Source: Ignavibacteriota bacterium (lineage in GTDB: Bacteria > Bacteroidota > Ignavibacteria > Ignavibacteriales > Melioribacteraceae). From it: a stretch of 60,152 nt of DNA. The position numbers were made by a program, and so were the translations under genes. The stretch is taken from positions 1-60,152 of the forward strand of contig JABFGH010000030.1 of the NCBI GenBank assembly GCA_013112585.1. Direction: 5' to 3'. The notes beneath the pieces are model-generated. The model was not told the DNA's origin, ran no database searches, and saw only the letters and a list, made by a program, of their open reading frames with translations. This document shows positions 14,901 to 40,279 of the stretch, in pieces (positions within the stretch are counted from its first letter, which is position 1; the number at the start of each line of letters is the position of its first letter).

Positions 14901-15526
14901 GTAAGCGCTCTTTTTCTGTGTTCGTAAACAGCTTCGGTTGGAATAAAGTTTTTTAAGTCTTCAACAGTTAACTGTTCAATTTTGTTAACTTCGTGCGATG
15001 ACCTAAAACCATCGAAGAAATGAAGGAAGGGTACTCTTGTTTCTAAAGTTGCTCTGTGCGCAATTGCAGATAAATCCATAATTTCTTGAATTGAACTAGA
15101 TGCTAACATAGCAAAACCGGTTTGGCGTGTTGCCATTACGTCACTATGATCGCCAAAGATTGATAATGCTTGAGCTGCAATAGAACGAGCTGATACATGA
15201 AAAACAGCCGGAGTTAATTCGCCTGCAATTTTGTACATGTTAGGAATCATAAGCAGCAAACCTTGCGATGCAGTAAAAGTAGTTGTTAATGCACCGGATT
15301 GTAATGCTCCATGAACCGCGCCTGCAGCACCGCCCTCACTTTGAAGTGCGGAAACACTTGGTACAGTTCCCCAAATATTTTTCATTCCCCTTGCCGCCCA
15401 TTCATCCGACATTTCTCCCATTCCGGAGGATGGAGTTATCGGGTAAATCGCAATAACTTCACTCGCATGGTAGCCTACATATGCGGCGGCTTCGTTTCCA
15501 TCGATTGTTATTTGTTTTCTTTCCAT
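11945..15526 (-). CDS. nifJ: Pyruvate:ferredoxin (flavodoxin) oxidoreductase, single-chain
   Basis: The 1193-residue product matches the full-length homodimeric PFOR in size and order. The N-terminal pyruvate-binding domain begins with GNEAAAYVGYHASEVIAIYPITPSS. Two [4Fe-4S] ferredoxin motifs lie at about residues 695 and 755 (CIQCGKCALVCP and CTGCELCVEVCP). CSGCGETPY at about 823, GCSSIYG at about 857 and a late Cys in YSHCIAHG at about 1082 can ligate the third cluster. A thiamine-diphosphate motif (GDGWAYDIGYGG) lies at about 972. The enzyme converts pyruvate and CoA to acetyl-CoA, CO2 and reduced ferredoxin in the cytoplasm, implying an anaerobic or facultative lifestyle. GGGG lies before the ATG. 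Confidence 0.97.
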   Translation of the reverse strand: MERKQITIDGNEAAAYVGYHASEVIAIYPITPSSGMGEMSDEWAARGMKNIWGTVPSVSALQSEGGAAGAVHGALQSGALTTTFTASQGLLLMIPNMYKIAGELTPAVFHVSARSIAAQALSIFGDHSDVMATRQTGFAMLASSSIQEIMDLSAIAHRATLETRVPFLHFFDGFRSSHEVNKIEQLTVEDLKNFIPTEAVYEHRKRALTPDNPVLRGTAQNPDVYFQGRETVNKFYNEAPETVQKAMDEFAELTGRQYKLFDYYGAPDATRVIVMMGSGAEAALETVNYMTERMEEKVGLINVRLYRPFSAKHLLNVIPKTVQKISVLDRTKEPGAIGEPLYLDVVTAIAEAMASDEKPFEQMPKITGGRYGLSSKEFTPAMVKAVYDEMKKDNPKNHFTVGINDDVTFTSLEFDPDFIIEGDDVVRAMFYGLGADGTVGANKNSIKIIGEETDNFAQGYFVYDSKKSGSTTVSHLRFGKKPIHSTYLIQSTSFVGCHQFNLIEKFDVLEKLVDGGTFLLNSPYSKEETWQHIPKKMQEEIINKKLNFYVIDAYNVAKAAGMGARINTIMQTCFFAISGVLPKDEAIAQIKNAIKKTYGSKGEIIVQKNYEAVDHSLANLHQIEVPEKVTSTFEMPPIVSDKAPDYVKNVLGKMMQGKGDDVKVSEMPVDGTFPTSTTQWEKRNIALQVPVWEPDICIQCGKCALVCPHATIRIKAYDEELVKDAPETFKWMKTKGKEFDGTAYTIQVAVEDCTGCELCVEVCPAKSKTETRFKALNMADQIPLREKERENYDFFLNLPEYDRTALNLSSVKGSQFLQPLFEYSGACSGCGETPYVKLVSQLFGDRTVVANATGCSSIYGANLPTTPWAKNKDGRGPAWSNSLFEDNAEFGYGMKLAIEKHNSFALELLTELSDQVGTDLANSIINAEQEDEAQIIEQRERVTELKEKLEAINTDDAKNLLAVADYLVKKSVWIMGGDGWAYDIGYGGLDHVLASGKNVNVLVLDTEVYSNTGGQMSKATGIGAVAKFAAAGKPTAKKDLAMMAMNYGNVYVAKIAMGANDLQTVRAIMEAEAYDGPSLIIAYSHCIAHGINMAKGLESQQLAVDSGHWPLFRYNPDNLKEGKNPLKLDSKAPKIKLEDYIYTETRYKMLTKSHPERAKELLDFAQEEVLKKWSFYEQMAGMSYSKPTNDEEE

Positions 15527-15775
15527 TAATGTTACCCCAAATTATTTATTAATTAAAAATGCTTTTTTTTGATTCTCGATTGCAAATTCCTTGCCATTTT
15601 ATCGGATTAAAATATCTCTTTTACTTTATTGTATTTTGACTTAAAAATGCAGTCGGTTAAATAAGACACCTAATCTATTTTAGAAAACTCGTTCTTAAAA
15701 TCTTATTATTAAGAATTCCATTGCTAATTTCTAAGAAACCAAAATAGGAATTTATCGAATAAAAATAAAGATGTT

Positions 15776-15890
15776 AGCATCGGAAAGTAATGCTTTACTT
15801 TGAGATTTCTCTTATTTCAATTCAATAGAGCAGTATCACTAAAATAAATTCATTCATTCTTCTTTTTAATCTTCCGATGCTTGCTTTTTT
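15776..15890. other. Intergenic element with long-range inverted repeat and inner hairpin
   Basis: This lies in the 15527-15964 gap between nifJ and the polymerase fragment. Perfect 10-base arms AGCATCGGAA (15776-15785) and TTCCGATGCT (15872-15881) enclose 86 bases. Just inside the left arm AAAGTAA and TTACTTT form a second hairpin. The right arm is followed on the plus strand by TGCTTTTTT. A small plus-strand RNA ending in a U-run is one reading; a leader structure for nifJ on the minus strand is another. No known RNA family was recognised. The rest of the gap is AT-rich with no visible gene. Confidence 0.3.
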
Positions 15891-15908
15891 AAAGTGTATA
15901 TATTATAT

Positions 15909-15932
15909 AGTGTTCAAGTGTTCAAGTGTTCA
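15909..15932. repeat. Three tandem copies of AGTGTTCA
   Basis: Three perfect head-to-tail 8-base units run from 15909 to 15932, 33 bases before the ATG of the C-terminal polymerase fragment. They could be regulator-binding iterons or slippage products. No -10 or -35 element is clear around them. Confidence 0.6.
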
Positions 15933-15964
15933 CTAATTTTTAACAATTGTTTTTGTCAAAAAAA

Positions 15965-17620
15965 ATGTATCAGTCGGAATTTATTGACTTAAAAAATTAT
16001 AATCTGCCGGGGAACAGCACTTTAAGAACTGCTGTTATCCGTCCCCCATTGCCTAAACCGGGATTTGATATTTATGATTATCAAATGCTCTTTAATAATG
16101 AAGAGACAAAAAAGCTTATAAGGGAAGGAAGAACAATCGGCTGCTTTTACATCGAGTCGCCGGGCATGCGCTCTTTATTGCAAAGGTTAAACTGCGATAC
16201 TTTTGAAATGCTTACCGCCGCAAGTTCTGTAATTCGCCCGGGAGTTGCAGAAAGCGGAATGATGCAGGAATTTATTGCACGGCATAAAAACCCGAACCGC
16301 CGTAAATACCTTGTTCCCGAAATGGAAAAATACCTTGGTGAAACTTACGGCGTAATGATCTATCAGGAAGATGTGATAAAAGTAGCTCATCATATTGTGG
16401 GGCTTAGTTTGGAAGAGGCTGATTACCTGCGCCGTGCTATGAGCGGTAAAATGCGTTCGCAGGAAGCAATGAAAAAGTTGCTGGATAGATTTTTTGATTC
16501 ATGCAAAAGTAAAAGCCTTCCTCCTAAAATTGCTAAAAAACTATGGGAACAGATTTCATCTTTTGCCGGTTATGCATTCTGCAAAGCACATAGCGCATCA
16601 TTTGCTCTCCTCTCCTTTCAGGTAGCATACTTAAAAGCACACTACCCTGCCGAGTTTATGGCTAATGTGCTAAACAACGGCGGCGGGTTTTATTCATCTG
16701 CCGTTTATATAAATGAATGCAAAAGAATTGGAATTAAAATTTTATTGCCTTCAGTAAATGAAAGTAACTGCAGATACAAAGGTAAAGGGCAAATAATAAG
16801 AATGGGACTTAATGCCATAAGAGAAATTGAGAAAAAAACTTTAATGAAAATTGCAGAGGAAAGAGATAAGAACGGAAGGTATAAATCATTGGCGGATTTT
16901 ATTACACGTACAAAAACTACGCACGAAAAAACTAAAATTTTAATAAAGTGCGGAGCAATGGATTGTTTGAAAAAAACACGACCCACACTAATGCGGCTGA
17001 CAGATATTTATTATCATTGTAAAAACATGCTCGATTATAATTCCCTAAATCTTTTTAATCAGGATACCTCGTTATTAGAAAAAAGTGTGGAAACTATTAG
17101 TCAATATACCGCTAGCGAAGTTGGGATCTACGAGCAGGAGCATTTGGGCTTTACTGTTACACATCACCCGCTTGAGTTTATTAAAGAAATTTTTGATTAC
17201 CCCGGTATAATAAAAGCGGAAGATTTAGCGAAGAATAGAAACAGAAGAATAAAAATGGTCGGCTGGTTTATGACTTCAAAAAGAATTAAAACGAGGAAAG
17301 GCGATATAATGAAATTTCTTTCGCTGGAAGATTTGAGCGGAACTTTTGAGGCTGTGCTGTTTCCGAAAACTTATAGCAAGTATGCCGAATTAACTATGTC
17401 TTTAGGACCTTATCTAATTGAAGGCAAAGCCGATATTGAAAACGGTAATAATATAATAGTAGAAAAATTAGAAGTGCTTTCCTACAAACACGCACTGCAG
17501 TTTGCACAAAAGGATAGTTCGCAGAATAAATATTTTGGAGATGTAGAAAAAGTAACTGAAGAAGAATTTGCTATTGCACAATCATTAGATAAGGAGAAGC
17601 TAAGGAAGGCTTACGTATAG
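15965..17620 (+). CDS. C-terminal half of a DnaE-type polymerase (fingers to OB fold), split gene
   Basis: The product is about 551 residues from the ATG at 15965; an in-frame TTG at 15947 is possible, and neither has a clear ribosome site. DnaE similarity begins near residue 35 (YDYQMLFNNEETKKLI). It includes the fingers segment GCFYIESPGMRSLLQRL, then VMIYQEDVIKVAHHIVGLS and FAGYAFCKAHSASFALLSFQ, which are hallmark alpha-subunit blocks. An OB fold follows at about residues 420-505. The PHP and palm domains with the catalytic aspartates are absent here; they are on the opposite strand in the adjacent gene. The tail is short and lacks the tau-binding region of replicative DnaE. The first 30 or so residues are not recognised as DnaE. 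No internal stop is present. Confidence 0.85.
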   Translation: MYQSEFIDLKNYNLPGNSTLRTAVIRPPLPKPGFDIYDYQMLFNNEETKKLIREGRTIGCFYIESPGMRSLLQRLNCDTFEMLTAASSVIRPGVAESGMMQEFIARHKNPNRRKYLVPEMEKYLGETYGVMIYQEDVIKVAHHIVGLSLEEADYLRRAMSGKMRSQEAMKKLLDRFFDSCKSKSLPPKIAKKLWEQISSFAGYAFCKAHSASFALLSFQVAYLKAHYPAEFMANVLNNGGGFYSSAVYINECKRIGIKILLPSVNESNCRYKGKGQIIRMGLNAIREIEKKTLMKIAEERDKNGRYKSLADFITRTKTTHEKTKILIKCGAMDCLKKTRPTLMRLTDIYYHCKNMLDYNSLNLFNQDTSLLEKSVETISQYTASEVGIYEQEHLGFTVTHHPLEFIKEIFDYPGIIKAEDLAKNRNRRIKMVGWFMTSKRIKTRKGDIMKFLSLEDLSGTFEAVLFPKTYSKYAELTMSLGPYLIEGKADIENGNNIIVEKLEVLSYKHALQFAQKDSSQNKYFGDVEKVTEEEFAIAQSLDKEKLRKAYV

Positions 17621-17630
17621 AATCTGATAA

Positions 17631-19304
17631 TTAATTTTTATCAAGTGAATTTATTGGAATTATATTTCCGACATCTCCTTTATCGATGTGCTTATAATTT
17701 TCTCCCAGACCATTCATTGTATCTTTCAGAACTTCTAAAGAGCGCTGACTTAAAAGATCTATTTTTATTAATCCAAGGTCTTCTATTCCATACATATCGG
17801 GCTGTGTAATTATCAAACCGAGTCCTTTATTTTTTGCATACTCAAGGGCAACATAATTTGTAATTGGCTTTTCCGTAACCACAATGCCGCTGGCATGAAT
17901 ACTTAAATGCCGGGGGAATGACGCTAATCGGCTGGCGATATTTACAATTGATTTCCATGGTTCGGAATTAAAATTTAAGGATTTAGATTCAGGAAATTTT
18001 TCTGCCAATGCAGGCAGGTTTTTTGCACTTGTCCATGGAATCAGTTTGCTGAATTTAGATATCTCCCTTTCGGAAACACCAAATACTTTTGCGGTTTCGC
18101 GAAAAGCGGAACGTGCCCTAAATGTAACGGTAGTTGATATCATTGCTACTTTGTCATAGCCGTATTTGTCATAAACATATTTTACAATTTCATCTCTTTC
18201 CCGCCACGAAAAATCAAGATCAATATCGGGGGGGCTTGTACGTGCCCTGTTCAAAAATCGTTCAAAGTATAAGTTGTGCTCAAGCGGGTCAACTTGAGTA
18301 AAATCAAGACAGTATGAAACCAAACTATTTGCTGCCGATCCTCTTCCGATTGATATCATCTGCCTATTTCGTGCTTCTCTAATTATATCCCATACAACAA
18401 GAAAATAATCGCTGAACCCCAGTTCATCTATTACTTCTAATTCATACTGCAGCCGCTTTACCGCCCGCTCGGTTATGGGTTTATATTTTTTACCCAAGCC
18501 TTCAAAACAAATTTTCCATAAATATGAAAATGATGTTTCGTTTTTAGGCAGCGGAAAAACAGGGAATTTATACTTCCCGAATTCCAGATCAACATTACAG
18601 TTCTGCGCTATATGCTCTATATTCCAAAGAGCTTCAGGCAATGCTTTCCAGGTCTGTTCAAATTCTTTAGGCGATTTCAAATAGTATTCTTCGTCAACTA
18701 GTTTGGCTGTATCAATATTTTCGAATGTTGAGCGTTGTTTAATTGCTGTTACAACTTTGTGCAGAATAAAGTCTTCCGGTTTTTCAAAATAAGCCGGGTG
18801 CGAAGCTGCGACTTGAACTTTATTCTCTTTTGCAAATTCGTATAAGGCTCTGGTATGCTTCTTCTGTTTTTCGGTTACAATTAATTCTGCAAAAATATTT
18901 TTTCGTATTGCCCCGGTAAGTTTAATTTTTTTCAGCAGTTCAATTGATGAAGTTAGGATAAAAAAGTTTTCTAAATTTCCTTTAAAAATATTAATGAGTG
19001 AAAAACCATCTTTTAGTTTTCTCGCTGAAATTAACTTACAAAGTTCTGAATAACCCTCATTATTTTTAGCAATGAAAACAGCATTTAGAGTAGAGTCATC
19101 CGGATCGTCAATCACGGCACCGAGAATTGGTTTTATATTTTCTTCCTCAGCCTTTTGTGCAAAATTAATTAGCCCGTACATACCGTTAGTGTCGGTGAGT
19201 GAAATGTAACTGCTCTTGTGCCGTTTGGCAAAGTTAACCAACCTATCAATTGGTATTGTACCCTGCAGCAGGGAATAGTTTGAATGGTTATGAAGATTCA
19301 GCAC
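17631..19304 (-). CDS. N-terminal half of a DnaE-type polymerase (PHP and palm), split gene
   Basis: The 557-residue product starts with GTG and begins like the alpha-subunit PHP domain (NLHNHSNYSLLQG, SLTDTNGMYGL). The palm contains PDIDLDF at about residues 359-365 and IKIDLLSQRSLEVL at about 511-524. Together these supply the three catalytic aspartates of the family. Similarity stops shortly after that helix, about 16 residues before the stop, exactly where the fingers domain should begin. The fingers and OB fold are encoded convergently at 15965-17620, ten bases away. The gene lies 21 bases downstream of dinB, as in SOS mutagenesis operons. Whether the halves assemble into an active enzyme is unknown. 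Confidence 0.88.
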   Translation of the reverse strand: MLNLHNHSNYSLLQGTIPIDRLVNFAKRHKSSYISLTDTNGMYGLINFAQKAEEENIKPILGAVIDDPDDSTLNAVFIAKNNEGYSELCKLISARKLKDGFSLINIFKGNLENFFILTSSIELLKKIKLTGAIRKNIFAELIVTEKQKKHTRALYEFAKENKVQVAASHPAYFEKPEDFILHKVVTAIKQRSTFENIDTAKLVDEEYYLKSPKEFEQTWKALPEALWNIEHIAQNCNVDLEFGKYKFPVFPLPKNETSFSYLWKICFEGLGKKYKPITERAVKRLQYELEVIDELGFSDYFLVVWDIIREARNRQMISIGRGSAANSLVSYCLDFTQVDPLEHNLYFERFLNRARTSPPDIDLDFSWRERDEIVKYVYDKYGYDKVAMISTTVTFRARSAFRETAKVFGVSEREISKFSKLIPWTSAKNLPALAEKFPESKSLNFNSEPWKSIVNIASRLASFPRHLSIHASGIVVTEKPITNYVALEYAKNKGLGLIITQPDMYGIEDLGLIKIDLLSQRSLEVLKDTMNGLGENYKHIDKGDVGNIIPINSLDKN

Positions 19305-19325
19305 ACTAACTAATTATCCCTTTCT

Positions 19326-20519
19326 TTAATTTCCTTCCGGATGAAATGGATTTACAAATCTATCAGAAACCTTTTCGGTGCGTCCAAACTGCACTACAGA
19401 ATAACCATACTTATCCCGTATTTTTGTTACAGCCCGCAGCATTTTTTTTCTTATTGTATCTTTATCTTCAAACAAAATTTCCTGCTCACTGAATTCATTA
19501 AACTTTGTAAGATGAATCCCGACCAAGCGCACACTTACCCTGCGTGTATCCCCTTTTCGTAAAAGGGCAAGAGCTGTATTGTAAATTATTTTATCATCAT
19601 CAGTGGGCTTAATTGTTTTTGCGCGTGTAAGTGTTATAAAATCAGAGTAACGGAGTTTGATACTTACAGTGGCAGCCTGCCAATTTTTATCACGAATTAG
19701 TTGGCAAACTTGTCCGGTAAGTTTGAATAGTGTAGCTTCAATTTCTGCACGGTCGTTTATATCTTTTCCATAAGTTCGTTCTTTGGAAATACTTTTTCTT
19801 TCCTGTGGCGGATTCAAATATTCGCTTCCTCCGCCATTAGCTTTTTTCCATAAGCCGCCGCCATGCTTTCCAAACGCAAAAAGAAAATACTCTTCGGATA
19901 GTTTTGTAATATCACCAATTCTATAAATACCCTTGCTGTGGAGTTCCTGCAAAGTTACTTTACCCACGCCCGGTATAGTTTCTACCGGCATTGGCGCAAG
20001 AAACTCTTTTTCCATTCCGGGCATTATGTAAGTAATCCCCTTCGGCTTCATGCAATCGGAACCGATTTTTGCAATGGTTTTATTGCTGCCGATACCAATT
20101 GAACATGGCAAAGATAGTTTATCCCAAATTTCTTTTTGAATTTTGGAAGCAAACATAAACAGTGAACCGTAAACATTTCTGCAGCCGGTAAAATCCATAT
20201 AAAATTCATCAATGCCGGCTTGCTCAATCATAGGTGCATACTTTTCCAAAATATGCTTAACCGCTTTCGAGTAGCGGCTGTACTCGCCATGACTGCCATG
20301 CACATAAATTCCATGCGGACAAAGTTTGTATGCTTGTCTGATGGGCATTGCAGAGTGCAGCCCGTATTCCCTTGCTTCGTAGGAGCAAGTGCTTACTACT
20401 CCCCTTCCGTATTCGGGGTTAGCTCCAACAATAACGGGCTTTCCTTTTAAGGATGGATCGAGTATCCGCTCTACTTCAACGAAGAAGGCATCGAGATCGA
20501 GATGGAATATTGTACGCAT
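19326..20519 (-). CDS. dinB: DNA polymerase IV (Y family)
   Basis: The 397-residue product has the Y-family catalytic blocks: FHLDLDAFFVEVE at the start (first metal-binding Asp) and GIDEFYMD at about residue 103 (second Asp-Glu pair). STCSYEAREYGL and a helix-hairpin-helix segment (IPGVGKVTLQEL) also fit. It carries out error-prone translesion synthesis. The common SIDEAYLD is replaced by GIDEFYMD, a minor variation. The gene is followed at 21 bases by the N-terminal half of a DnaE-type polymerase, reminiscent of imuB-dnaE2 style cassettes. No strong ribosome site is visible before the ATG. Confidence 0.93.
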   Translation of the reverse strand: MRTIFHLDLDAFFVEVERILDPSLKGKPVIVGANPEYGRGVVSTCSYEAREYGLHSAMPIRQAYKLCPHGIYVHGSHGEYSRYSKAVKHILEKYAPMIEQAGIDEFYMDFTGCRNVYGSLFMFASKIQKEIWDKLSLPCSIGIGSNKTIAKIGSDCMKPKGITYIMPGMEKEFLAPMPVETIPGVGKVTLQELHSKGIYRIGDITKLSEEYFLFAFGKHGGGLWKKANGGGSEYLNPPQERKSISKERTYGKDINDRAEIEATLFKLTGQVCQLIRDKNWQAATVSIKLRYSDFITLTRAKTIKPTDDDKIIYNTALALLRKGDTRRVSVRLVGIHLTKFNEFSEQEILFEDKDTIRKKMLRAVTKIRDKYGYSVVQFGRTEKVSDRFVNPFHPEGN

Positions 20520-20545
20520 TTTTTAATAGAACGCTGATGACACAG

Positions 20546-20566
20546 ACCTGCCTGCGGCATGCAGGT
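20546..20566. repeat. GC-rich intergenic inverted repeat
   Basis: ACCTGC (20546-20551) and GCAGGT (20561-20566) pair around a nine-base loop between dinB and the GxxExxY gene. A similar CCTACC/GGTAGG hairpin occurs near 51080. Such GC-rich hairpins stand out against the AT-rich background and may be dispersed repeats. Confidence 0.45.
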
Positions 20567-20577
20567 TCAACTGATTT

Positions 20578-20962
20578 TCACAGATTTTTATTAGTATATA
20601 TTTTTCTTTTTATCTCAGGCTTCTTACCAAAATTTAGTAACAGCCCGATTTCTATATCAGTAGCTTTTAAATAATTTATTAATTGTAATTCATGTTCCTC
20701 ACAAAGTGATTCAGCAGCTTTTAATTCAATAATGATTTTATCATCAATAATTAAATCAGCAAAATACTCACCAACATTTTTTTCTTCATAAAATACTTTT
20801 ATTGGTTTCTGCTTTTCTACTTTTAGTCCTATCTTCTTAAGTTCATAAGCTAATGCGTTCTCATAAACTTTTTCTAAAAATCCAAATCCTAATTCATTGT
20901 AAACTTTATAAAAAAAACGAAATTATTGTGGACGACAATTCTTTATATAAATACTCTTTCAT
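20578..20962 (-). pseudogene. GxxExxY family protein, frameshifted near its start
   Basis: From the ATG at 20962 the frame reads MKEYLYKELSSTIISFFL then stops. Removing one T from the eight-T run restores FYKVYNELGFGFLEKVYENAL, the family's GxxExxY signature. The frame then continues to a TGA at 20578-20580 through ADLIIDDKIIIELKAAE. The rest (EHELQLINYLKATDIEIGLLLNFG) is intact, giving a normal length of about 128 residues. The break is either a homopolymer sequencing error or a real frameshift. Family function is unproven; a nuclease-like PD-(D/E)XK fold has been proposed. The gene sits between DUF72 and dinB on the same strand. Confidence 0.85.
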
Positions 20963-21007: not shown

Positions 21008-21883
21008 TTATAAACTTAATGCAAACTCCTTCAACCTGGGATATGCTTTCAAAATTGTTTCCGGCATTTTTATTTTTGATTTTTCTTTCAGCAGATGTAG
21101 CAGCTCAAATGCATTAGCCACTGCATCTCCGTGAGGATGGTTATTCATTATCACAAATACTTTTTTAACCTTGTCAAAAATTTCCTTCAGCTTTTGATCA
21201 ATCTCCACAAGTTCCCCCGGTGAGTATAAATATTCATAACGCGCGCTTTGCTGTTCGTATGTCTGCTTCTTACCAAAGTTAGTAAGTGACTGCTTCCATG
21301 CTTCTTCGTTGCGTCCGTGAAACCTAATGTATGCAGCCTTGTTCCCCACTATCGGATCAAACTCAATTGACTCACCAATTTGCGGCTGATCAATTGTGCA
21401 GAATGTAACTGACTTTGCATGTTTGTTCATCCACGATCTATGCCGTACTTCAATAAATTTTTCGTAGCCTTCAAATCTTTCAATCAACTTACGCAGGTAT
21501 TCAACATTAGCATCATTAAAATCAAATGAGTAAGGAAATTGTATCAGCAATCCGCCAAGCCGCTCTGCAGTTTTAAGCATGTCCAAATTATGCTGCACTG
21601 CTTTTATCTGCTCATTGGCATACCGGCGCTTATGTGTAAAATCATTATGCAGCTTAACCGTAAATAAAAAATCATCCACGTCTTCAGTTTTTCTAAGCCA
21701 GGCTTCCACCACCCGCGGTGATAAATAAGTGTAGTATGATGCATTAACTTCAACGGCATTAAAGTATTGCGAGTAAAATTCCAGCCAGTCAAAATTTTTG
21801 GATTGCTGCTTCGGGTAGAAGTTCGGCACCCAATCTTTATAGGACCAGCCGGCTGTACCGATGTATAGCTGCGGAGTTCTCAT
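21008..21883 (-). CDS. DUF72 (YecE-like) TIM-barrel protein
   Basis: The 291-residue product begins LYIGTAGWSYKDWVPNFYP and contains NAVEVNASYY, GGLLIQFPYSF, FIEVRHRSW and a late YIRFHGR and VIMNNHPHGDAVANA. These are the standard blocks of DUF72. The family has a TIM-barrel fold and its reaction is unknown. Here it is the first gene of a probable minus-strand group with GxxExxY, dinB and the polymerase half. It starts 85 bases from a divergent XRE regulator and may share that control region. Length and ends look normal. Confidence 0.9.
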   Translation of the reverse strand: MRTPQLYIGTAGWSYKDWVPNFYPKQQSKNFDWLEFYSQYFNAVEVNASYYTYLSPRVVEAWLRKTEDVDDFLFTVKLHNDFTHKRRYANEQIKAVQHNLDMLKTAERLGGLLIQFPYSFDFNDANVEYLRKLIERFEGYEKFIEVRHRSWMNKHAKSVTFCTIDQPQIGESIEFDPIVGNKAAYIRFHGRNEEAWKQSLTNFGKKQTYEQQSARYEYLYSPGELVEIDQKLKEIFDKVKKVFVIMNNHPHGDAVANAFELLHLLKEKSKIKMPETILKAYPRLKEFALSL

Positions 21884-37325: not shown

Positions 37326-37820
37326 TTAAAATATTTCAAGTTGCTTATCCGCCCCTGAGTATTCATTTTCATGTTTAAGCAGCCAGTCCTTGCGCCATAC
37401 ACCGTAGGCATAACCGGTTAAACTGCCGTTGCTGCCAATTACTCTGTGACAAGGAATTATTATTGCGATGTTGTTTTGTCCGTTTGCCGTACCCACTGCA
37501 CGAACTGATTTTTCGTCACCCAATGCTTTTGCTATATTCATATAGCTTGTAGTTTTGCCGAATGGAATTGTAAGTAAGTAGGTCCAAACTCTTTGCTGAA
37601 ATTTTGTTCCTTCCCTATCTAATTTTACAGTAAAATTTTTCCGCTTGCCTTCAAAATATTCCCCTAATTCTTTTAGGCATTCTTTTAAATACGGATTAAC
37701 AATTTTCTTGTTAGGAGTACCCGATTCTTCAAATTCTAATTTTCTAATTCCATTTTCCGAAGCAGTAATTTTTATCCAGCCAATTTCGGAATTGAAATAT
37801 GCACTTTGTAATTCAGTCAT
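37326..37820 (-). CDS. ogt: Methylated-DNA--protein-cysteine methyltransferase
   Basis: The 164-residue product carries the active-site block IIIPCHRVIGSNGSLTGYAYG with the acceptor Cys at about residue 130. The helix-turn-helix-like TKFQQRVWTYLLTIPFGKTTSYMNIA is typical of the family. It removes alkyl groups from O6-alkylguanine by irreversible transfer to the Cys. It overlaps alkA by eight bases, forming an alkylation repair operon. Length is standard for Ogt without an Ada regulatory domain. Confidence 0.93.
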   Translation of the reverse strand: MTELQSAYFNSEIGWIKITASENGIRKLEFEESGTPNKKIVNPYLKECLKELGEYFEGKRKNFTVKLDREGTKFQQRVWTYLLTIPFGKTTSYMNIAKALGDEKSVRAVGTANGQNNIAIIIPCHRVIGSNGSLTGYAYGVWRKDWLLKHENEYSGADKQLEIF

Positions 37821-38700
37821 ATAAAGACCTCCACAAATAAAATACTGAATAAGCTTTCCAGTTACCCCATTCAGCAGTTATTTGATTTAATTTATTTTTA
37901 TCAGGTTTGCTTTCTAACTTCAAATTATTTTTGATTGCATTATGCAGACCAACATCAGCTATCGGCAATGCTTCGGGGAATCTCAAACATTTCATCAAAA
38001 CATAATCGGCAGTCCATTCACCAACGCCTCTTATTTTTAATAAAGATTCTTTTGCCCCGGTGTAACTCATATTTTTTAATTCTTCTTTATCAGGAAGCTC
38101 GTCATTGTTCATTTTGTAAGCCAGCTCAATTATGTATTCTGATTTTTTACCGGTGAATTGCAGCTTCATTAAATCATCTACTGAAACATTTAGTATTTCT
38201 TCCGGGCTTGGGAACAGCCAATAATCATTACCCTCATAAATTACTTTTTCACCGAATGTTTCAACGAATTTTTTCTTTAAGGTATATGCAAATGGCAGAT
38301 TAATATGCTGCCCGATTATTGCCCAACATAATGCTTCGAATAATTCCGGTATGCCTATTAGTCTTAAACCAAAATATTTTTCTGTCAGTGGTTTCATCAA
38401 ACTATTTTTGGAAGCAAAACTGTAGAACGGTTTTAGGTTAGTTTGTAAATCCAGCCATTCTATTACATACTCCTTTGCTGTTTTGCATACCTGGTTATTA
38501 GAACAAAAATTTAAGTATTCAATTTCGAGTTTATTATTGACGGCACTTATTTCAAGAAGAAGTAAATCATTATTAACTCTTAATAGCTTGCGCAGTTTAC
38601 TATTCTCTACAATGTGCAAACATTCATTGGCAGACCTGCCTAAAAATGTTAGGCATTCATTCCAGTTAAATTCTCTTGGAAGGGTGATAGCAGTTTTCAT
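37813..38700 (-). CDS. alkA: DNA-3-methyladenine glycosylase (AlkA-type, HhH-GPD)
   Basis: The 295-residue product has an N-terminal AlkA-like domain. Its helix-hairpin-helix is LLKIRGVGEWTADYVLMKCL, and the catalytic Asp is in LPIADVGL at about residue 246. It excises alkylated bases and leaves abasic sites. Its end overlaps ogt by eight bases, and lexA lies about 0.8 kb upstream on the same strand. Motifs are intact and length is normal. Confidence 0.92.
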   Translation of the reverse strand: MKTAITLPREFNWNECLTFLGRSANECLHIVENSKLRKLLRVNNDLLLLEISAVNNKLEIEYLNFCSNNQVCKTAKEYVIEWLDLQTNLKPFYSFASKNSLMKPLTEKYFGLRLIGIPELFEALCWAIIGQHINLPFAYTLKKKFVETFGEKVIYEGNDYWLFPSPEEILNVSVDDLMKLQFTGKKSEYIIELAYKMNNDELPDKEELKNMSYTGAKESLLKIRGVGEWTADYVLMKCLRFPEALPIADVGLHNAIKNNLKLESKPDKNKLNQITAEWGNWKAYSVFYLWRSLYD

Positions 38701-38718
38701 TTAATTACGTTTTTCTTT

Positions 38719-38820
38719 AACCACAAACTACACAAAGGTTTTACACAAAGGGCACAAAGTTTATAGTATTACTCTTTTAATACCGTGTTTTAATATTTCA
38801 CATTAAAGTTAATCAATAGG
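38719..38820 (-). repeat. Degraded duplicate of the GxxExxY 3' end and its flank
   Basis: This segment closely resembles 38961-39064, the last 60 or so bases of the intact GxxExxY gene plus the following CACAAAGG-rich tract (both contain TAACCACAAA and ATTAAAGTTAATCAATA). Several base changes separate the two copies. The protein frame has been lost here. It is a fragment of an old tandem duplication. Confidence 0.8.
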
Positions 38821-38895
38821 CTGAGAGGATATTCATTTTGCCTCTCCTTTGTGTTCTTTGTGAATCTTTTCTTCGGGTTCTTTGTGGTTAAGGCT

Positions 38896-38961
38896 TTTGA
38901 ATTTTTGTTAGTTTTGACATGCATTTATTCCTGTTTAATTTTTGCTGGAAAAAGCTTTAAC
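38896..38961 (-). pseudogene. Fragment of a duplicated lexA start
   Basis: On the minus strand a leader with CAGGAATAAAT is followed by ATGTCAAAACTAACAAAA, encoding MSKLTKIQKA. The intact lexA gene has the same leader and encodes MSKQLTKIQKA. The fragment continues about eight codons only, then runs into unrelated sequence. It proves an old duplication that included both lexA and GxxExxY ends. Confidence 0.8.
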
Positions 38962-39004
38962 CACAAAGGGCTCAAAGATTTTTCACAAAGGACACAAAGA
39001 GGAA

Positions 39005-39376
39005 TTATAATATTACTCTTTTGATACCGTCTTTTAGGTATTTTACATTAAAGTTAATCAATAAACCGAGTTTGCATTCAGCTAATTTAAGGTATGTTAA
39101 AATTTGAGCTAAGTGAATATCGTTTAACGCTTCAACTGATTTGATTTCTAATATCAATTTACCTCCTACCATCAAATCAATTCTATAGCCGCAATCTAAT
39201 TTTACCTCCTCATAAATCAACGGCATTGCTTTTTGTTTCTCCACAAATAGTCCATTCTTACTCAATTCATAAAACAAACACTCTTCATAAGCAGATTCTA
39301 ACAATCCAGGTCCTAAATTTTTATGGACATTAATTGCCAATCCAATTACAATATTTGATAATTGATCTTCATTCAT
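39005..39376 (-). CDS. GxxExxY family protein, intact
   Basis: The 123-residue product contains GPGLLESAYEECLFYELSK (the GxxExxY signature), then GYRIDLMVGGKLILEIKSVE and LAQILTYLKLAECKLGLLINF. These are all family blocks. The D-x(9)-E-I-K arrangement fits a PD-(D/E)XK-like core, but activity is unproven. It follows lexA on the same strand by about 90 bases. A second, frameshifted family member lies upstream of dinB. Small, cytoplasmic, no signal peptide. Confidence 0.92.
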   Translation of the reverse strand: MNEDQLSNIVIGLAINVHKNLGPGLLESAYEECLFYELSKNGLFVEKQKAMPLIYEEVKLDCGYRIDLMVGGKLILEIKSVEALNDIHLAQILTYLKLAECKLGLLINFNVKYLKDGIKRVIL

Positions 39377-39468
39377 TTTGCTTTTCCTTTGTGCTTTGTG
39401 ATCCGTCAGCTGACGGACTTTGAGCTCTTTTCCCTAGGGGATACCTTTGGTAGCGGTTAAGGCTTTTT

Positions 39469-40092
39469 CTACCCAACTTTTTTATCCATAGTTCTGTAAA
39501 CACCAACCACAACACCTACAAGCTGAAAGCGGGGATATTCTTTTTCAATGATCATCGGTTCATATTCGGGGTTTTCGGAATGAAGCTCAATGCAATCCGG
39601 CTTTTTGAAGAACCGCTTAACTACTGCTGCATCATCAAGCACAGCAGCAACAAACCGCCCGTTAACCGGTTCCATATTCGGATTAACTATCACGATGTCC
39701 CCGCTAAAAATATATGCATCTTTCAAGCTATCCCCTTTTACCTTAAGCAGAAAGGAATCTCTCGGCATATGCGCAATTGTGGGCAGATCAATTGTATCAA
39801 TTGCATCGGGGTAAATTGTTAGCGGGTTACCGGCAGCAACCTCGCCTAAAATTGGACGCGGAATAAAAAACTTATCTTCCAATGTAAGTTCAATTCCGCG
39901 CGAGAGTTTAGGACTCCTTTTAATGAAACCCTTTTTTTCAATTGCCTGCAAATGCTGCTGGGCTGTTGAGCGGTTTTTGTACCCAAATTTCTTGGCAATT
40001 TCGGCTAGAGTCGGAGTTAATCCACTTCCCGATTTCATTTCAATAATAAAATCAAGAATTGCTTTTTGAATTTTTGTTAGTTGTTTTGACAT
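39469..40092 (-). CDS. lexA: LexA-type SOS repressor
   Basis: The product is 207 residues from the ATG at 40092 (AGGAA upstream); the in-frame TTG at 40122 would add ten residues without a ribosome site. The N-terminal winged helix has TLAEIAKKFGYKNRSTAQQHLQ. EVAAGNP holds the Ala-Gly self-cleavage site. The catalytic Ser is in VKGDSLKDAYIFSGD and the Lys in AAVVKRFFKK. RecA-stimulated self-cleavage should derepress target genes. A palindromic operator and strong promoter lie about 170-215 bases upstream. AlkA and Ogt lie downstream. Confidence 0.95.
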   Translation of the reverse strand: MSKQLTKIQKAILDFIIEMKSGSGLTPTLAEIAKKFGYKNRSTAQQHLQAIEKKGFIKRSPKLSRGIELTLEDKFFIPRPILGEVAAGNPLTIYPDAIDTIDLPTIAHMPRDSFLLKVKGDSLKDAYIFSGDIVIVNPNMEPVNGRFVAAVLDDAAVVKRFFKKPDCIELHSENPEYEPMIIEKEYPRFQLVGVVVGVYRTMDKKVG

Positions 40093-40259
40093 GAATTTAT
40101 TCCTGTTTAATTTTTGCTGCAAAGGGCTTTAACTATAAAGGACTTTCTAGATAAAAGTTTGTCTTCAATTTTGCATACCTTCGGCACGTAAGTCCCATTA
40201 TTTTATTTAATTTTGACTCATATTCTAATCTTTCACAAAGAATAAGGTAATTTTATAAA

Positions 40260-40279
40260 TACCATACATTTGTATGGTA
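40260..40279. promoter_or_regulatory. Probable LexA operator (20-bp palindrome)
   Basis: TACCATACATTTGTATGGTA has perfect nine-base arms around a two-base centre. It begins at the last base of a -10 element and covers the expected transcription start of lexA, a classic repressor position. I saw no second exact copy in the window. Binder identity is inferred from position. Confidence 0.65.

Follow-up and report, generated by a model that had tools for sequence, protein, structure and literature searches.

A two-gene, intein-free form of an accessory C-family DNA polymerase in the order Ignavibacteriales, predicted to act as a two-chain translesion enzyme

C-family DNA polymerases are generally regarded as single chains. 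In the lexA2-imuA-imuB-dnaE2 mutagenesis cassette, an accessory DnaE is grouped with a Y-family protein and a LexA in a damage-linked cluster. Here we analyse a stretch of 60,152 nucleotides from an Ignavibacteriota bacterium (GenBank assembly GCA_013112585.1, contig JABFGH010000030.1; hereafter, the window), in which a DnaE-type polymerase is encoded next to dinB by two open reading frames (ORFs), an N half with the PHP and palm domains and a C half with the fingers. It is probable that these ORFs encode two subunits of one accessory C-family polymerase, likely a DnaE2-like translesion enzyme, that arose by an ancient gene fission, with halves that dock and a C half, made during the SOS response, that gates assembly. 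As in the cassette, genes of all three kinds lie in one cluster in L073 and G051 (G, L, C and f numbers are our handles for genomes, loci, contigs and families). Unlike in the cassette, the DnaE here is in two pieces, its Y-family partner retains catalytic motifs (judged by eye), and the LexA1-type operator is as a rule confined to the C half.

Among the closest described systems is DnaE2B-PolY-RecA of Bacteroidetes (PMC12926913; all statements on published papers refer to portions of them), in which an accessory DnaE lies beside an active Y-family polymerase with a RecA-NT-like C-terminus, an arrangement that the window may share. The DnaE here is two genes, and the portions of that paper drawn upon mention neither a split form nor Ignavibacteria. 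Two-gene polymerases are themselves not new. The family B PolB3 of Methanobacteriales is also made from two separate genes, a split suggested to originate from erratic intein excision (PMC4104785), but that enzyme is archaeal and replicative-type, whereas ours is C-family and bacterial, with an SOS-type operator on one half and no trace of an intein. The cyanobacterial split-intein DnaE (PMC3919608) also comes from two genes, but is replicative, is trans-spliced to one chain and, by its protein models, is cut ~170 residues further on. The same large survey rejoined fragmented C-family polymerases as likely errors where intact relatives existed; its Table 1 lists one Ignavibacteria genome with DnaE1 and DnaE2, and a split is not mentioned in the part consulted. 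A term search of the Melioribacter genome paper (PMC3534657) gave no hit for DNA polymerase, LexA or dnaE, and we recognised no report of a split DnaE2 in the excerpted open-licence literature. 

Domains and conservation of the two halves

The two ORFs lie tail to tail with 10 bases (17621-17630) between their ends; an alternative TTG start at 15947 would extend the C half to 557 amino acids (aa; 15947-17620, plus strand). Pfam searches matched the N half to PHP (4-138) and the DNA_pol3_alpha palm (261-518; model 2-259 of 260, nearly complete), and the C half, numbered from the TTG start, to DNA_pol3_finger (49-189; model 27-165 of 166) and HHH_6, with the OB domain just below the cut-off (25.4 vs 27 bits). 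Together the halves have the DnaE domain order of PHP, palm with the catalytic Asp triad, fingers, HhH and OB, distributed in the window and in relatives over two genes rather than held in one chain. In the N half, D360, D362, D364 and D516 align with 401, 403, 405 and 555 of Escherichia coli alpha (solved structure), and three of these, D360, D362 and D516, correspond to the catalytic Asp. Because the N half aligns to ~569 and the C half from 592 of E. coli alpha, with ~20 residues unaligned between, we place the cut between palm and fingers; it falls just past the helix that follows the last catalytic Asp, a break point shared by two-half genomes. The original prediction, made from the window alone, was of a DnaE-type polymerase split into opposite-strand open halves ending ten bases apart, with the cut between the palm, carrying the catalytic Asp, and the fingers. 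ORFs and Pfam agree with the former claim and the E. coli alpha alignment with the latter.

Both halves are under purifying selection: the ratio of non-synonymous to synonymous substitution rates (dN/dS) was 0.025-0.085 in 7/10 comparisons, the other three being saturated. Decayed pseudogenes, as a general account of the halves, are ruled out by these values, though single genomes (G053, G036, G020) are damaged. The four aligned Asp are invariant in 47/47 N halves, and invariant positions number 67 in N halves and 118 across 50 C halves. The clamp-like LF of the C half is also kept (L in 48/50, F in 50/50).

The genome has one further palm match, a 1157-aa dnaE1 frame on contig C2, and the split polymerase is accessory to this separate, replicative DnaE1, as a DnaE2 would be. 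Membership of DnaE2 proper is likely. Compared with the PHP motif of PMC12926913, the N-half metal site is degenerate: position 39 (motif His) is T in 35/47, and the acidic residue near position 64 is gone in most. A degenerate PHP metal site is reported for most DnaE2 (PMC3919608).

AlphaFold, with each half folded as a single chain, gave a pLDDT (predicted local distance difference test) of 87.8 for the N half and 77.3 for the C half. The top PDB matches in Foldseek were Pol III alpha chains for both, at query TM (template modelling) scores of up to 0.85 (N) and 0.67 (C). The C half carries a weakly conserved ~34-aa extension at its N-terminus and one of ~45 aa at its C-terminus (10/46 columns at ≥80%), the latter absent from L073 and from the f51 copies examined. 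The C-terminal tail of the N half varies from none to ~30 aa (≥12 aa in 23/47) and is not conserved. Several tails close with a hydrophobic KIFKL-like motif (e.g. G008, G034, G031), and a similar short hydrophobic motif starts the f54 C halves; it is a possible docking peptide or RecA-type motif.

Distribution and origin of the two-gene form

In 58 relatives, each half finds its closest full-length match in a frame of its own, of 530-594 aa for N (52-73% identity) and 557-614 aa for C (56-68%). Frames with palm and fingers together in these genomes are dnaE1-like, at ~29-36% identity. Across the order (164 genomes; C half at E ≤ 1e-90), the C half was found in 102 genomes, in frames of at most 628 aa, nine of them fragments. 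Presence of the two halves is linked in the 58 genomes: both in 39, N only in 4, C only in 4 and neither in 11 (Fisher p 6e-6, fragments as in G006, G010, G020, G029, G036 and G043 counting as present). The C half of the four C-only genomes lies on a short contig or close to a contig end. A further DnaE-like frame of 554 aa (G027:C18:112335-113552) gave partial matches to the two halves (40% and 28%).

The layout varies widely. At loci holding both halves, these are convergent in G000, G002 and G019 (the window included) and divergent in G011, G021, G023, G042, G047, G056, G057, G172, G473 and G525, with dinB between them except in G047. Tandem halves occur as N then C (G009, G044, G051) or C then N (G012, G018). 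In the remaining two-half relatives they are on separate contigs, are spaced by 40 kb (G034) or lie at a great distance along a single contig (G035, G046, G048, G049). Six genomes of f54, a family of the same class, also carry split-type halves; in G359, G352 and G365 both are on the same strand, 2.8-6 kb apart.

Elsewhere the gene is mostly intact. All matches outside the order in a phylum search sit in frames of 977-1090 aa, and in a class search families f51, f13, f56 and f57 mostly have intact frames of 1037-1111 aa; shorter frames came from G364, G370, G384, G385 and G400, the last running off its contig. Overall, intact orthologues in other families measure ~980-1,110 aa, and those of 980-1,020 aa in Bacteroidota genomes L257-L259 adjoin dinB. 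The closest by identity is L073, 1068 aa long, with 49% identity to the N half and 53% to the C half; it comes from a metagenome-assembled contig labelled Aminicenantes and stands in the arrangement lexA-dinB-dnaE.

Maximum-likelihood trees were built separately for the N and the C parts, each with 60 rows, a midpoint root and no named DnaE2 references. In both, the 42 two-half genomes form one clade, with support of 100/99 (N) and 100/98 (C); neither midpoint-rooted tree settles which intact form is its sister. Since both trees give one clade, the break point is the same and the halves are never fused in the order, we infer one old fission. It would have occurred at the palm/fingers boundary in the common ancestor of the order and family f54, with the halves probably separate since. 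In G377 (f56; L252 1146-4325) the N and C parts share one frame interrupted by one TAG close to that boundary, the rest of the family being otherwise intact; this break is either an error or a second, independent fission.

A LexA1-type operator and the assembly of the halves

The C half is preceded by a palindrome, TAGTG-N2-CA-N2-TG-N2-CACTA, which we read as a putative LexA1 operator. We scanned for it within 300 bp upstream of genes (≤2 mismatches unless stated), with the reversed pattern as control. It precedes the C half in 44/54 loci (46 at ≤3 mismatches) and the N half in 1/52, dinB in 7/31 and intact polymerase genes in 0/16. A count made ahead of the C part of intact genes falls within the coding sequence and is disregarded. 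The control precedes the C half in 0/54 loci, and in one at 3 mismatches. The 54 loci include five of f54 and G377, all without operator; the eight that lack it are these six, G044, whose C half has a lexA2-type box, and G051, where the C half comes immediately after the N half. By sequence, then, the C half carries the predicted LexA operator of an SOS regulon member. In the window operator an 8-bp unit (TTCAAGTG) is tandemly repeated, giving 28 instead of 20 bp with TAGTG starting at 15908. Some N-half loci, such as L201, L204 and L205, have upstream a frame resembling the end of purD (by eye) instead of dinB, and no operator was found there, which suggests that a different promoter drives these N halves.

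The window's own genome has another copy on contig C3, 9 bp ahead of lexA1. Operator and reversed pattern each occur in five places at ≤2 mismatches; because the operator is no commoner than its control, we rely in that genome on two copies alone, those preceding lexA1 and the C half. At ≤1 mismatch the operator occurs in 45/58 relative genomes and the reversed pattern in 9/58. Among the copies listed in relatives (at least 75), 41 precede lexA (31 genomes), 24 the C half (24 genomes) and 10 neither. Three of these 10 were examined (G024, G015, G047), each standing before a Y-family gene or umuDC. The Bacteroidetes LexA-like motifs GGA-N5-TCC and CTAA-N5-TTAG (PMC8565304) are unlike both this palindrome and that of lexA2 described below, and the text of that paper gave no match for Ignavibacter. 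For a branch of Bacteroidota that has been little studied, these palindromes are candidate LexA operators.

We propose that the halves most likely dock non-covalently as a heterodimer and rebuild an active site, the N half giving the catalytic Asp and the C half the fingers, DNA-binding and clamp-binding parts. The rebuilt polymerase would probably work alongside DinB from the adjacent gene in a mutasome linked to RecA. LexA would bind the C-half operator, and the C half, induced by damage, would gate assembly of the polymerase, because in most loci examined the LexA-type operator is on the C half and not on the N half. The clade-wide, intein-free fission between palm and fingers would be a natural split enzyme, and raises two testable questions: how two chains rebuild a polymerase active site, and whether cells limit mutagenesis through assembly of the halves.

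Several observations weigh against this proposal. Eight genomes have a single half, with G054 and G055 having N without C. The G053 N half is a fragment with a stop, the G036 C half has an internal deletion and the G020 N half is in two frames; such damage suggests loss or assembly faults. The five f54 loci have no operator. The AlphaFold models of N and C were built separately, and the C-half extensions are of low confidence. For both halves, the NCBIfam DnaE1 models outscore the error-prone model (424 vs 374 and 369 vs 261 bits), none being above cut-off. Finally, N and C distances are correlated (r 0.54; 0/2000 permutations), but the mirror-tree says little beyond shared descent, because the correlation falls to 0.26 with dinB distances fixed (22 genomes).

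The original prediction held that the locus arose most simply by inverting the 3' half of a gene once placed after dinB, in a recent or reversible event unless the halves still work as two subunits. We weighed such an inversion, with halves decaying or able to flip, together with an assembly error. The halves do sit tail to tail by dinB, 10 bp apart, where intact L073 and L257-L259 have dinB-dnaE. However, the comparison of relatives that the prediction itself called for contradicts a recent or reversible event: in the 102 genomes of the order that have the C half, no frame of it exceeds 628 aa, and in the 58 relatives the halves are separate frames, in many layouts. Strong purifying selection and the separate operator of the C half also speak against it, as do the inverted repeats in 15300-20900, which are short or weak only (longest 32 nt, 75% complementary, AT-rich), with no strong flanking pair. 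An assembly error is at odds with the convergent layout recurring in G002 and G019 and with the divergent, tandem and distant layouts of other genomes. We therefore give inversion or misassembly very little credence. Nor do we expect, on a par with these, a split intein joining two proteins into one chain: cyanobacterial DnaE provides the precedent (PMC3919608), but Pfam detected an intein domain in neither N nor C (E ≤ 0.001), the N tails are variable (none to ~30 aa) rather than conserved, and the cyanobacterial models PRK09532 and PRK07373 cut near C-half residue ~210, ~170 residues further on.

Retention of the halves for separate jobs, N as a nuclease or scaffold with DinB and C as a DNA- or clamp-binding regulator (e.g. 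of DnaE1), is unlikely, though less so. It would suit the eight single-half genomes and halves that are often unlinked and differently controlled. Yet the polymerase Asp are invariant in every N half compared, the fingers residues are kept in 50 C halves, the PHP metal site that a nuclease needs is degenerate, and presence of the halves is strongly linked. Two subunits of one polymerase remain our preferred reading: the two-gene form is real, ancient and conserved, and is predicted to be an obligate two-chain translesion enzyme. Halves still working as two subunits were among the options of the original prediction, and conservation and selection support that option, the function itself being predicted. 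Its on/off control of translesion synthesis is plausible too, yet would be transcriptional, through the LexA-type operator of the C half, and not by inversion.

Genomes with neither half may have another enzyme in its place. In G024 (L337, 1046-2301) and G015 (L336, 3-1139), both without the split polymerase, the operator stands before umuD-umuC or another Y-family polymerase, a hint that Pol V-type enzymes may replace the split polymerase in such genomes. UmuD-like genes occur in 4/11 genomes without both halves and in 0/47 others (p 0.0008), an association that is only suggestive because the score threshold was set after seeing the list.

dinB, lexA2 and the neighbourhood

The features of the locus are collected in Table 1. 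Visual inspection suggests that the DinB encoded alongside retains its catalytic motifs, carries a clamp-like EQExLF motif and ends in a C-terminus resembling RecA-NT, a motif concept taken from PMC12926913. dinB adjoins the N half in the window and in many relatives, though not all.

Table 1. Coordinates of the split polymerase and associated features in the window
Feature	Position	Strand	Remarks
C half of split polymerase	15965..17620	plus	551 aa from ATG; fingers, HhH, OB-like domain, clamp-like motif LF
N half of split polymerase	17631..19304	minus	557 aa, GTG start; PHP and palm
LexA1-type operator of C half (predicted)	15908..15935		15916-15935 matches TAGTGNNCANNTGNNCACTA with one mismatch
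dinB (Y-family polymerase)	19326..20519	minus	Open; 21 bp upstream of N half, same strand
DUF72 gene	21008..21883	minus	Between lexA2 and dinB in several relatives
lexA2, second LexA (LexA_DNA_bind and Peptidase_S24)	39469..40122	minus	~19 kb from dinB here
lexA2-type operator	40261..40278		Perfect copy of ACCATACNNNTGTATGGT; upstream of lexA2

The second LexA gene, lexA2, has its own palindrome, with core words before 26/36 lexA2 genes. It forms one same-strand cluster with DUF72, dinB and the N half in G027, G036, G038, G040, G051 and G054; in G002 the order is lexA2-OGT-DUF72-N, and G013 has the same genes over a longer stretch. Altogether 8/52 N-half loci are accompanied by lexA2, most having none within the stretch examined. 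Because lexA2 clusters with dinB and the N half in these loci while the C half has a LexA1-type operator, we speculate, as a tentative and rather doubtful extension, that control is two-key (AND): dinB and the N half would belong to the lexA2 cluster and the C half to LexA1, and the polymerase would need both repressors relieved. Such logic, if true, would be a natural control of mutagenesis made possible by gene fission. G044, with its lexA2-type box, and G051, in which lexA2-DUF72-dinB-N-C follow one another on one strand, would then be one-key versions. In the window, lexA2 and its operator belong to a DNA-repair cluster on one strand (37326-40278) with a PDDEXK_3 protein, an HhH-GPD glycosylase and an O6-methylguanine methyltransferase.
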